Source: Bacteroidales bacterium
Lineage (GTDB): Bacteria; Bacteroidota; Bacteroidia; Bacteroidales; JAGONC01
Reading direction: 5' to 3'
NCBI GenBank assembly: GCA_023133655.1
Contig: JAGLWB010000388.1
Location: 1 to 49,091 of the forward strand
DNA length: 49,091 nt
Position 1 is the stretch's first letter; the number at the start of each line of letters is the position of its first letter. Positions 26,913 through 34,047 of this stretch are shown one piece after another. The translations under genes were made by a program, and so were the position numbers. A model generated the notes under the pieces. That model searched no databases, was not told where the DNA came from, and saw only the letters and a program-made list of their open reading frames with translations.

Positions 26913-28628
26913 GTGAATTTCATCGCAGATGAAGATGCATCACTTTTTATTTACATCGAAAACGATAGCCTATCGCTTACCATTGACAGCGCTTACTTTG
27001 AAAACTTGCTTTTTGAAGAAAAAACCCACGCATGTACTATTAATAACAGTGAATTCAGCAACTCTATGATTAAAGGAAGTGCCGACTATTTCCTGCTTTC
27101 TTCTTCTGAACTTACAAATACACCTGTTCGCCTCAGCAGAGAAAAAAGTGAGGACACCTGCATCGCAAGAGTTGAAGATTGTATAATTCTGTACGATGAG
27201 GCATACCGCATAAACGATACCCTTAATCCGCCTTCAGCACAAGACCACCTTGCTGAAACACTCATTGGTGTGGAACAATATCACCACTACCTGATCTTAA
27301 ACGACTCTATCGTACATGACGAACTTGATGGAATTACGCTCTATTACGCAGGTTCAGGAATAGTTAATAAGGTTAAAGACTGTTATCTTCACTTTTCAGG
27401 AGATGTTTCCACAGATACCAGTTATGGTTTAATCATCTATAAAAGTTACGTTGATGTGCAGAAAAATTACATCGATGAACATACAACCGGAGTGGCGTGT
27501 TTGGATAATAGCAACAGTAAAATTAATAGTGTGGTAAAAGATCCTGATGAAGACGATACACAACATATAATTAATAATGAAGACAACCAGGTGTATATTT
27601 TGGCAGGTAGTTTTCCATATGAATTTGAATACAACTATATATACGGTTCTGATACTACTGAAATGTATGTGTATTTAAACACAATTTATTCGTGCGAAAG
27701 TCCTTGTTATGACGTTGAAAACAATTATTGGGGGGATAATGGTTTTATTCCCGATTCGAATTTGTATCCTATTGGAGAGTATAATTATCTGCCTCTTTGG
27801 AGTGGCTATAAAAACACACCTGTTGATGCTCTTATTTACAGAGCAGGGGAGCAAGCAATGGAAGATGGTAATTACCCACTTGCTGAATCAAAGTTCAAAG
27901 AGATCATTGAAGATTTTCCCAATTCAAAATATGTGGATGCTTCGGTAAAGATAATGTTGGCATTAAAACGAATTTATGACCAGGATTATGCAGAGCTACA
28001 AGATTATCTATATTCTATCCCTTCATTATGGGAAGATACTACAACTGCCAATGTAACTGACCATGTTATCAATTGGTGCAATATTGAAAAAGAGGATTAT
28101 GTGGCAGCCATAATTTGGTTTGAAGACCAGATTGAAAATCCAAACAGCTATGCTGATTCAATCTGTGCTATAATTGATCTGGGTTATACGTATACCTTAA
28201 TGGATACAACATCGAACAAATCATCTGGATTTATTGGTAATTACCCCCAATACAGGCATACCTCCCGTGCAGCATACGAGAAAAACCGCGAATACCTGGT
28301 CGACCTGTTATTCAGGAAGAATAGTCATTCACATCAGAAAGAACACGATCCATTGCAAACTGCATCATTTTTCCTTCATCAAAATTATCCTAATCCGGTA
28401 AGCGAAACCACAACCATAAAATATACGATTTCCCAACAATCGGATGTAAAACTTAACGTTTACAATATTTTAGGAAGCATCGTCACTACATTGGTTAATG
28501 AAATGCAGCGTGAAGGCGAAAAACAGGTTACATTTAATATCCAAAATCTGTCAAACGGCCTGTATTATTATTCCCTAGTGGTCGATAACGAGATAATAGG
28601 AGTAAGAAAAATGTTGGTGCTGAGATAA
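26913..28628 (+). CDS. Continuation of the same protein: beta-helix region plus T9SS type A sorting domain
   Basis: Parallel beta-helix-like repeats; AGEQAMEDGNYPLAESKFKEIIEDFPNSKYV TPR-like; NYPNPVSETTTIKYTISQQSDVKLNVYNILGSIVTTLVNEMQREGEKQVTFNIQNLSNGLYYYSLV. Confidence 0.85.
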   Translation: MNFIADEDASLFIYIENDSLSLTIDSAYFENLLFEEKTHACTINNSEFSNSMIKGSADYFLLSSSELTNTPVRLSREKSEDTCIARVEDCIILYDEAYRINDTLNPPSAQDHLAETLIGVEQYHHYLILNDSIVHDELDGITLYYAGSGIVNKVKDCYLHFSGDVSTDTSYGLIIYKSYVDVQKNYIDEHTTGVACLDNSNSKINSVVKDPDEDDTQHIINNEDNQVYILAGSFPYEFEYNYIYGSDTTEMYVYLNTIYSCESPCYDVENNYWGDNGFIPDSNLYPIGEYNYLPLWSGYKNTPVDALIYRAGEQAMEDGNYPLAESKFKEIIEDFPNSKYVDASVKIMLALKRIYDQDYAELQDYLYSIPSLWEDTTTANVTDHVINWCNIEKEDYVAAIIWFEDQIENPNSYADSICAIIDLGYTYTLMDTTSNKSSGFIGNYPQYRHTSRAAYEKNREYLVDLLFRKNSHSHQKEHDPLQTASFFLHQNYPNPVSETTTIKYTISQQSDVKLNVYNILGSIVTTLVNEMQREGEKQVTFNIQNLSNGLYYYSLVVDNEIIGVRKMLVLR

Positions 28629-28879: not shown

Positions 28880-30247
<1,368 letters not shown>

Positions 30248-30564
30248 TTAAATTAGTAATATGTTAATTCTTAGCTTATTATAATAGCTTATTTAAAAGG
30301 AAGCAATATTAATTAAAATATTTCGAATAAGAACAAGAAAAAAGTGTTTTTTTTGTTATGTTTATAGCAGTTGAATCCGGGTAAGCTTAACTTCACATCC
30401 AGGGTGTTTTAAGTATTGGATAATGAATATTTGTTGATGTTTAAAGAAATTCACATAGATTGATTGTCAATTATGGAAAATTTTGTAACTTTAAGCTTCA
30501 TATTAAAGATAATATATTCAACCCTGGATTGCTGTTTTTTATCAAATTTGCAGAAAAAAAGTAT

Positions 30565-33500
30565 ATGAAAAAGAAGGGACCTGAAGAAAAAAAGAAATCA
30601 GAAAACAATGCCATTAGCCCTGAATTGTACCAGTACCTGCTGGCAGAACGGCTTAAAGAATTATCCTGTATAAATCAAACCTCCCAAATACTCAGAGAAG
30701 GTAAGTCCATAGAAGAATCACTGCAGCAAATCAGTGAGATAATACCAAAGGCCTGGCAATATCCTGAGTTTACCGTTGCCAGAATCACATTCCGTGGAAT
30801 GGAATTTACCAGTCCAAACTTCAAAGAAACCCCCTGGTTTCTTAGCTATCCTTTTGCCACTATTGATAACCAGGAAGGAAGACTTGAAGTCTATTACCTG
30901 AAAGAGTTTCCATCCTCTGACGAAGGACCATTCTTAAAAGAAGAGCGAGACCTGATCAACAACCTGGCCGGAATAATCACCGGCTATTTAAACAGCGTTA
31001 AAGGAAAAACCCTTATTAAAAAGACAATTACTGATAAATCTGTGTTGGAAAAATTTTCACCGATAGCAGGGAAATCCAAATACAGCCGGCAGTTATTACA
31101 ATCATTTCTAAACAAAAGCAATCAAAACAGAGACATCTATCATGACTTGATGCCATTTAAAGTTAAAGAAATTTTGTTGGTCGCAAGCCTTTATGATGCT
31201 TATACCATAGAAAAGGAGGGTAAATTCTCTGAACATGTGCTTGAAGATTACCAACAACTCAACCTAACATCCATACCCCGGATTACCGGTGTGTCAACAC
31301 CGGAAGAGGCAATGGAGGAATTGCGAAAGAAACATTTTGACCTGGTGATTATCATGGTTGGGGTTGATAAAAAAGCACCATTAGGCCTCAGTTGTAAAGT
31401 TAAAAATGAATTTCCTTACATTCCTATCTTCCTCCTGCTGAATAATAATAGTGACATTGCATTTTACAATAAACAGGGTAAAAAAACAAAACACATTGCT
31501 AAAATATTTATATGGAATGGCGAGTCGAAGATGTTCTTTGCCATGATCAAACATGTTGAAGATAAAATCAATGCCGAGAATGATACAAAAATAGGCCTGG
31601 TAAGGATTATTCTCCTTGTTGAAGATTCAGCCATTTACTACTCCAGGTATTTACCCTTACTTTACAGTGTGGTGATGGATCAAACCAAACGCATCATGGA
31701 TGATGTCAGCACAGACGACCTTTACAAAGTCCTAAAACTCCGAGCCAGGCCAAAAATCCTGTTAGCAACAACTTTCGAGGAAGCGCTGAGTATTATTAAT
31801 CATTTCAAAGAATACATGCTTTGTTTGATCACTGATATGAAGTTTGAAAAAGAGGGCCGTTTGGATGAAAATGCCGGTGTAAGCCTGATCACAAATATCC
31901 GTAAAAAGTTTCCTCGATTGCCGATCATTTTACAATCATCCGAAACAACAAATGAGCGCATTGCACACGAACAAAAAGTGACCTTTATAGATAAAAACTC
32001 TGAAACCCTGTCACAGGATTTTAAGAGTTTTATTACCCATTACCTGGGCTTCGGTAACTTCGTGTATAAAAACAGTAAGGGAAAACAGATTGCTATCGCC
32101 AGATCACTTGATGAGTTTGAAAAACACCTGAGAACAATCCCGGATGATTCAATTCTTTATCACGCCAGGCGTGATCATTTTTCATTATGGTTAATGGCCA
32201 GGGGAGAGATACAAGCGGCAAAAGTCCTTCACCCGCGACGTACTTCAGATTTTAAAAATGCACCAAATATCAGGGAATACCTTATCAGTGTTATCAATAA
32301 ATTCAGAGATGAAAAGGACAGAGGAATGGTTATCCCTTTTAAGGCAACCTCTCTTCTCGATGAAAAAAACATCGTTAGCCTAATGCCAGGATCCTTGGGA
32401 GGTAAAGGCAGGGGTGTGACTTTTATCAACAACCTTATCTATAATTTTGATTTTTCGGCCCATGTGCCCAATATTAATATAAAGGCACCCATCACAGCTG
32501 TTATAGGAACAGAAGAATTTGAATATTTCCTGCAGCGAAATAAATTATATGACACAATCCTGAATCATCAGAATTATGAAGAAATTAAACGACTCTTCAT
32601 CAAAGGCAACCTAACACAAACGTTGATCAGCAAACTGAAAGTTGTTTTAAAAAACATAACCAAACCTATAGCTGTCAGATCATCAGGATTGTTTGAAGAC
32701 TCAATGATGCAGCCTTTTGCCGGTATCTTCGAAACCTTCTTATTGCCCAATAATCATCCCGATTTTAATGTTCGCCTCGAACATCTTACGAATGCCATCA
32801 AAATGGTTTTTGTATCCGTTTACTCACCGATTTCCCGCTCTTATATTGAGGCAGTTCATTATAAAATAGAGGAAGAAAAGATGGCAGTTGTAATCCAGGA
32901 AGTAGTAGGGAATCAATTCGGCAACACCTATTATCCACATATTAGCGGAGCAGCTCAATCATACAACTTCTATCCTTTCTCACATATGAAACCCGAAGAG
33001 GGTTTTGCTGTTATTGCTCTCGGACTGGGAAAATATGTTGTTGAGGGTGAGAAAGCATTTCGATTCTCTCCAAAATACCCAAATGCGGTCATAGATTCTC
33101 CAAAAGATCAATTCCGTAATTCTCAGGTTAATTTTTTTGCTGTTGATATGAATAAGAAAAATATTGACCTGTTGGAAGGAGATACTGCCGGGCTTATTCG
33201 ATTGGATATCGATGATGCAGAAATGCACGGGACGATGATCCACAGTGCTTCTGTTTACGATATAGATAATAACAGAATTACGCCCGGCTTGTCAGTACCC
33301 GGTCCCAGAATCCTGAATTTTGCCGATATTCTAAAGTATAATTACGTACCGCTGGCAAAAACCATTGAAATAGTCCTTGATGTTGTAAAAGAAGCCCTCG
33401 GATCCCCTGTTGAAATTGAGTTTGCAGTAGATCTGAAAAAAGACAGCAACTACAAAGCATCCTTTTATCTGCTTCAGATAAAACCCCTTATTGGAAGTGC

Positions 33501-34047
33501 TCAGGATTACAAAATCAACATGTCGGAGATCGATAAAAATCAAATATTACTTTATACTGAGAAGGGAATGGGAAACGGATTGATCAGTAACATTTGCGAT
33601 ATAGTTTACATCGACCGGGAAAAATTTGATAAAAGTAAAACGATTGAAATGGCTGAGGAGATTGAAAAAATAAATCAGGATTTTTTCAAAAAGAAAAAGC
33701 AATATATACTGATAGGGCCAGGCAGATGGGGCACCCGCGACAGATGGATTGGGATACCAGTAAAATGGCCCCAAATCTCTCAAGCCAAAATAATTGTAGA
33801 AACCAGCCTGGAGGGATATCCACTAGATGCATCTTCAGGATCACACTTTTTCCATAACCTCACTTCTATGAATGTAGGTTATTTCTCTATTCAGAACGAA
33901 ACCCCAGGCGCTTATATTAACTGGGAAATTCTCGAAAAACAAAAAGATGTAAAAGTAAACGGGTTCTTTAAACATATCCGGTTTGATTCGCCTTTATCTA
34001 TTAAAATGGATGGGAAAAAGCGGATAGCGGTGATAGCATTAGGGTAG
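30565..34047 (+). CDS. GAF-like + pseudo-receiver + receiver + PPDK_N-like (PEP/pyruvate-binding ATP-grasp) large protein
   Basis: Upstream in-frame start possible at 30460. Receiver features IILLVEDS, LITDMKF, LQSSE, FIDKNS; ATP-grasp features GSLGGKGRGVTFI, ITKPIAVRSSGLFEDSMMQPFAGIFETF, VEIEFAVDL. Confidence 0.88.
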   Translation: MKKKGPEEKKKSENNAISPELYQYLLAERLKELSCINQTSQILREGKSIEESLQQISEIIPKAWQYPEFTVARITFRGMEFTSPNFKETPWFLSYPFATIDNQEGRLEVYYLKEFPSSDEGPFLKEERDLINNLAGIITGYLNSVKGKTLIKKTITDKSVLEKFSPIAGKSKYSRQLLQSFLNKSNQNRDIYHDLMPFKVKEILLVASLYDAYTIEKEGKFSEHVLEDYQQLNLTSIPRITGVSTPEEAMEELRKKHFDLVIIMVGVDKKAPLGLSCKVKNEFPYIPIFLLLNNNSDIAFYNKQGKKTKHIAKIFIWNGESKMFFAMIKHVEDKINAENDTKIGLVRIILLVEDSAIYYSRYLPLLYSVVMDQTKRIMDDVSTDDLYKVLKLRARPKILLATTFEEALSIINHFKEYMLCLITDMKFEKEGRLDENAGVSLITNIRKKFPRLPIILQSSETTNERIAHEQKVTFIDKNSETLSQDFKSFITHYLGFGNFVYKNSKGKQIAIARSLDEFEKHLRTIPDDSILYHARRDHFSLWLMARGEIQAAKVLHPRRTSDFKNAPNIREYLISVINKFRDEKDRGMVIPFKATSLLDEKNIVSLMPGSLGGKGRGVTFINNLIYNFDFSAHVPNINIKAPITAVIGTEEFEYFLQRNKLYDTILNHQNYEEIKRLFIKGNLTQTLISKLKVVLKNITKPIAVRSSGLFEDSMMQPFAGIFETFLLPNNHPDFNVRLEHLTNAIKMVFVSVYSPISRSYIEAVHYKIEEEKMAVVIQEVVGNQFGNTYYPHISGAAQSYNFYPFSHMKPEEGFAVIALGLGKYVVEGEKAFRFSPKYPNAVIDSPKDQFRNSQVNFFAVDMNKKNIDLLEGDTAGLIRLDIDDAEMHGTMIHSASVYDIDNNRITPGLSVPGPRILNFADILKYNYVPLAKTIEIVLDVVKEALGSPVEIEFAVDLKKDSNYKASFYLLQIKPLIGSAQDYKINMSEIDKNQILLYTEKGMGNGLISNICDIVYIDREKFDKSKTIEMAEEIEKINQDFFKKKKQYILIGPGRWGTRDRWIGIPVKWPQISQAKIIVETSLEGYPLDASSGSHFFHNLTSMNVGYFSIQNETPGAYINWEILEKQKDVKVNGFFKHIRFDSPLSIKMDGKKRIAVIALG

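Follow-up and report, generated by a model that had tools for sequence, protein, structure and literature searches.

A PEP-synthase-type ATP-grasp protein with receiver domains and a new conserved tail is linked to glutamate dehydrogenase genes in Bacteroidota

When analyzing a 49,091-nucleotide contig of a Bacteroidales bacterium (the whole stretch is called the window here), we noticed a gene, P1, whose product consists, from the N to the C terminus, of a sensor-like region, receiver 1, receiver 2, a linker, a PPDK_N ATP-grasp domain, and a C-terminal tail. The gene lies on the plus strand at 30565..34047 and encodes 1,160 residues counted from the ATG at 30565. The frame is open upstream to a TTG at 30460, which could also be the start; the aligned start of a genomic paralogue fits the ATG. 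Divergent from P1 and about 0.3 kb away, the minus strand carries gdh (28880..30235), encoding an NADP-specific glutamate dehydrogenase (GDH) (NF006929, 1.7e-231; PF00208 and PF02812). The gene next to gdh, at 26913-28628, encodes a product that bears a sorting tail of the type IX secretion system (PF18962). A paralogue, P2 (45201..48170, plus strand, 989 residues), has receiver 1, receiver 2 (D250, codon 45948), PPDK_N, and the C-terminal domain (H924, codon 47970) and lacks the N-terminal sensor region; it is 37% identical to P1 over 968 residues, from receiver 1 to the C terminus. The genome has three family copies, the third being 60% identical to P1. The segments between P1 and P2 (34076-41206 and 42447-45071) hold a molybdopterin/NADH-dehydrogenase-like cluster, of formate dehydrogenase or hydrogenase type, and two similar NfnA/NfnB-like pairs (ferredoxin/NAD(P)H oxidoreductase), one downstream of P1 (34076-36290) and one directly upstream of P2 (42447..45071, plus strand). 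This gene content suggests a link with NADPH and ferredoxin balance. No RNA families were found in the window, and libraries of defense and phage families gave no informative match.

The AlphaFold model of full-length P1 has a mean pLDDT of 85.5, and its top PDB fold match in Foldseek is PPDK (5jvl, E = 5e-6); the tandem-receiver protein PleD was also matched. The protein carries no annotation beyond "PEP/pyruvate-binding domain-containing," the name that the family has in Parabacteroides. The initial annotation had asked whether the family was already characterized; our paper searches found no characterized member and no description of it. The P1 family is a large uncharacterized protein of Bacteroidota that combines a PEP-synthase-type ATP domain, two receivers, and a new conserved tail. 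From at least 565 confirmed relatives our genome scan kept the best 80; the titles are nearly all those of Bacteroidota metagenome-assembled genomes and isolates. Conservation was read from an alignment of 79 relatives.

The N-terminal sensor-like region with its coiled helix (30619..31029, plus strand), visible as elements of the model, recurs over about 120 residues, at 41% identity, in L004, a histidine kinase (HisKA and HATPase_c) that this genome also encodes. Seven P1-type proteins (L021, L023, L030, L070, L072, L076, and L080) are longer, at about 1,530 to 1,580 residues, with some 400 extra at the N terminus. These extensions are possibly new sensor domains; the two that we tested (L021 and L070) gave no significant Pfam match. 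Receiver 1 (31162..31599, plus strand) is recognizable by its fold in the model and is degenerate, its phospho-Asp being replaced by M264 (codon 31354). The loss of this aspartate, first read from the window alone, extends through the family: the position is Met in 54 of the 79 aligned relatives, Thr in 21, another residue in 4, and Asp in none. Receiver 2 (31603..32049, plus strand) is intact and has the full response-regulator set of acidic pair (E353/D354), phospho-Asp (D424, codon 31834), Ser/Thr (S458), and Lys (K477). All five residues are conserved as the initial annotation had proposed, E353, D424, and S458 in 79/79 relatives, K477 in 78/79, and D354 in 76/79. The Pfam receiver match is significant in P2 and below threshold in P1. 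A helical linker follows (32059..32364, plus strand), with invariant H533 and R546 and a weak DUF5752-like match.

One of the two receivers is thus competent. The earlier suggestion that the enzyme is gated by phosphorylation is plausible, but some relatives have no receivers and still retain the core, the His motif, and the proximity to gdh, which makes the receivers accessory to the core. The same relatives bear on a self-contained phosphorelay, in which a phosphoryl group would run from PPDK_N to the tail histidine and on to the receiver 2 aspartate of the same chain, with the output elsewhere and gdh reflecting general nitrogen signaling. The intact receiver 2 would suit such a relay, as would a NarL/LuxR-type response regulator gene found near the P1-type gene in 22 loci (L017:5153-5953 and 21 others; median distance, 43 bp), but core, motif, and linkage persist where the receivers are gone, and we regard the relay as very unlikely.

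The PPDK_N ATP-grasp domain (32392..33528, plus strand) was expected from signatures in the sequence, and both window paralogues indeed have a significant Pfam match (PF01326, E = 5e-35 for P1, above the gathering score, and 6e-40 for P2). For comparison we used the ATP-site residues of PPDK, which we take to be K22, R92, D321, E323, Q335, and R337. The corresponding site of P1 consists of K614, R705, E950, E952, Q971, and K973; K614, R705, E952, and Q971 are invariant in the 79 relatives, position 973 is Lys or Arg, and E950 replaces D321. Judging from these residues, the nucleotide-binding domain of P1 is apparently active. The NCBIfam PEP-synthase models match this domain only and far under their cutoffs. 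Weak matches, with scores far below the family cutoffs, were also obtained to rifampin phosphotransferase and the PigC/RedH ligases, PPDK_N lineages that act on other substrates and, unlike P1, have their own substrate and swivel domains.

The C-terminal domain (33544..34044, plus strand) carries the motif GPGRWG...WPQIS...G[ST]HFF.NLTS. That both paralogues end in a common block with an invariant histidine had been noticed at the outset, and the 37% alignment of the pair agrees with this, as does the wider family: the GxHFF motif is present in 162/164 collected ORFs, and its histidine, H1094 in P1 (codon 33844), is invariant across the 79 aligned relatives. The two ORFs without the motif are a truncated one and a histidine kinase that has the N-terminal region alone in common. 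P1 ends about 190 residues past PPDK_N, in what the model shows as a short alpha/beta domain, and neither P1 nor P2 matches the PEP/pyruvate TIM barrel, whose absence the initial annotation had pointed out. Nor is there a Pfam match to the swivel domain (PF00391) in P1 or P2, and a genome-wide search with PF00391 found only two proteins, neither of them P1 or P2. The same genome also encodes a 1407-residue ORF (G000:C31:27145-28554, L127) in which PPDK_N is combined with a canonical swivel domain and which is unlike an ordinary PPDK.

Structure prediction likewise revealed no canonical swivel domain with a phosphohistidine of the TSHAA/TCHAA type. The model of the tail alone, from an alignment of 88 sequences, is confident (pLDDT, 88.5) and has the order strand-strand-helix-strand-helix-strand-helix-strand, followed by a short helix and further strands; H1094 sits at the N terminus of a helix. 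This order resembles the swivel domain in outline, without statistical support for homology: hhalign gave a probability of 0.1, our own profile-profile alignment gave a Z score of -0.1, with column shuffles equally good, and Foldseek found no PDB match at E ≤ 0.001. A Foldseek comparison of the tail with viral models was also negative. With hhalign, shuffles, and Foldseek all negative, swivel homology of the tail was discarded as evidence, and a collinear match seen by eye was not used. The tail is best described as a domain without an assigned fold and with a candidate phosphohistidine, H1094, which may take the part of a swivel histidine. P1 shares with PEP synthase and PPDK (PpsA and PpdK) the PPDK_N domain with its conserved ATP-site residues, and it may work like them at the ATP half-reaction. 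It is, however, not a PEP synthase or PPDK, because of two domains that define these enzymes it has no detectable swivel His domain and no PEP/pyruvate barrel; instead it adds receivers and the novel tail.

We investigated the distribution of the family in two further sets of genomes. Of 149 genomes related to that of the window, the majority from its own order, 130 encode the tail domain, and several of the 19 genomes without it are small. With a strict threshold, 50/297 genomes from across the phylum have a family member, among them forms of about 580 residues that consist of PPDK_N and the tail alone and distant forms of about 780 to 1,070 residues, several of which combine a sensor-like region with a polB-type nucleotidyltransferase. 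Distant members ending in this nucleotidyltransferase (L115:3395-6604, L120:2343-5522, L121:5643-8834, L122:2-3157, and L123:265-3462; PF01909 in L120 and L122) have a GDH gene next to them or nearby, and many of them follow a family gene that has no receivers. Three unverified fecal "bacteriophage" records (MT835811.1, MT835667.1, and MT839982.1) carry a family gene of chromosomal type and may be bacterial contamination.

The genomic context connects the family with GDH, and this main functional clue was missed in the initial annotation, which had called P1 a nucleotide-dependent enzyme; the apparently active nucleotide-binding domain supports that part. A second of the three copies in the genome also adjoins a gdh. 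Among 120 family loci, gdh lies within 3 kb in 70, with a median gap of 162 bp; 59 of 93 gdh/family pairs are on the same strand, 35 of these 59 no more than 150 bp apart. In many loci near the query, gdh is absent within 6 kb. The loci from the best-80 scan are close relatives of the query, and a second sample was therefore drawn from genomes across the phylum. There, gdh was found within about 1.5 kb in 21/29 family loci and in 0/31 loci of canonical swivel proteins (Fisher p = 5e-10).

The GDHs paired with P1-type genes are 72 to 84% identical to that of the window, those paired with most P2-type genes form another group (45 to 71% identical), and the receiver-free and nucleotidyltransferase-fused relatives adjoin a different GDH class. 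The distance matrices of GDH and family gene correlate (r = 0.43, with none of 2,000 permutations as high). Since the permutation leaves the shared species history in, the correlation speaks for inheritance of the two as a module and not for direct contact. A GDH of the window class is present in 125/130 genomes with the family and in 15/19 without it (Fisher p = 0.016), the GDHs of the latter being mostly of a more divergent type. GDH can thus do without the family in some genomes, as expected for a regulator; still, the existence of genomes with GDH and no family member, and of genomes with the family and no GDH, counts against the regulator reading. Comparison of specificity residues between linked and unlinked GDHs yielded eight positions and no convincing phosphosite. 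Overall, the link between the P1 family and GDH is well supported; adjacency to gdh alone is no proof that GDH is the substrate.

Another neighbor, in 13/120 loci, is a 2-oxoacid:ferredoxin oxidoreductase pair, probably the 2-oxoglutarate enzyme, some 80 bp upstream of a P1-type gene (L028, L035, L036, L045, L050, L052, L056, L059-L062, L071, and L079, the last with the beta subunit alone within reach). Either this pair or gdh is near the family gene in 81/120 loci. Together with the linked NfnAB-like genes, the oxidoreductase would fit a small-molecule dikinase or ligase whose PPDK_N and tail would phosphorylate some metabolite at the 2-oxoglutarate/glutamate node, gdh being a gene of the same pathway. 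Most characterized PPDK_N enzymes do have small-molecule substrates. Rifampin phosphotransferase is an example in which PPDK_N has been reused with another substrate (PMC4844700). P1, however, lacks a third domain that could hold a substrate as the barrel or the rifampin-binding domain does, its receivers and sensor region are typical of a regulator, and the family is linked to both GDH classes; we consider a metabolic role of this kind doubtful.

Regulation of GDH has a history in Bacteroides. A 1987 study reportedly found that the B. fragilis enzyme is reversibly inactivated in vivo. A 1996 paper by Baggio and Morrison, known to us through its citation in a 2015 B. fragilis paper (PMC4539542), names in its title trans-acting genes downstream of gdhA that affect the activity of the B. 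thetaiotaomicron NAD(P)H-GDH. The P1 family likewise sits beside gdh: the P2 gene lies between two gdh genes in Phocaeicola and Parabacteroides, and in two genomes that we call Bacteroidaceae-like because their P2 and the Phocaeicola protein share 80% identity, it is convergent with an NADP-gdh and 0.1 to 0.3 kb downstream of it. Going by position and by the title of the 1996 paper, the family gene is likely the trans-acting gene downstream of gdhA. According to the 1996 abstract, a downstream segment of about 3 kb is said to have restored GDH activity in trans in Escherichia coli; such a segment would be about as long as P2 (2.97 kb).

An effect in trans could come from binding alone, as in a nonenzymatic or chaperone-like activator of GDH for which ATP is merely a switch. 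GarA controls mycobacterial GDH posttranslationally by binding (PMC2881912), and the actinobacterial GarA/PknG system is, like the one proposed here, a posttranslational control of a nitrogen-assimilation enzyme, although by an unrelated protein family. The catalytic-type ATP-site residues and H1094 are conserved in 79 sequences beyond what binding needs, and pure activation by binding is in our opinion decidedly unlikely.

The architecture, the conserved ATP site, the conserved D424 and H1094, and the strong link with GDH are most economically read as those of an ATP-dependent phosphotransferase of the PEP-synthase/PPDK ATP-grasp superfamily that has lost the PEP/pyruvate barrel and controls the adjoining GDH posttranslationally, a reading to which we give a probability of about one half. 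In this mechanism, the N-terminal sensor and receiver 2, with D424 phosphorylated by a separate histidine kinase, would open or close the catalytic core. PPDK_N would then bind ATP and phosphorylate a histidine, for which H1094 in the G[ST]HFF motif of the tail is the likeliest choice. The phosphoryl group, or the resulting conformational change, would be passed to GDH and alter its activity. Ammonia assimilation would thereby be matched to nitrogen and 2-oxoglutarate/NADPH status. Here we infer GDH as the target, the phosphorylation of the histidine, the phosphoryl route, the phosphorylation of GDH, and the direction of the effect (activation or inactivation).

GlnD and GlnE are nucleotidyltransferases that control nitrogen-assimilation enzymes posttranslationally. 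Their families are unrelated to P1, and the resemblance is limited to the polB-type nucleotidyltransferase of the distant relatives, which recalls their covalent control. Tentatively, the family could even represent a new class of barrel-free protein phosphotransferases with PEP-synthase-type ATP-grasp chemistry under two-component control that switch GDH covalently through a new phosphohistidine domain, with a sister branch adding a nucleotidyltransferase for a second modification.

GDH is one of the main ammonia-assimilating enzymes in gut and environmental Bacteroidota, and the P1 family is probably its missing on/off switch. For the trans-acting gene of 1996 there is now a candidate, a specific and widespread family of unusual architecture, which makes an old question testable. 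If the phosphotransferase reading is true, a metabolic dikinase fold would have been turned into a signaling phosphotransferase.
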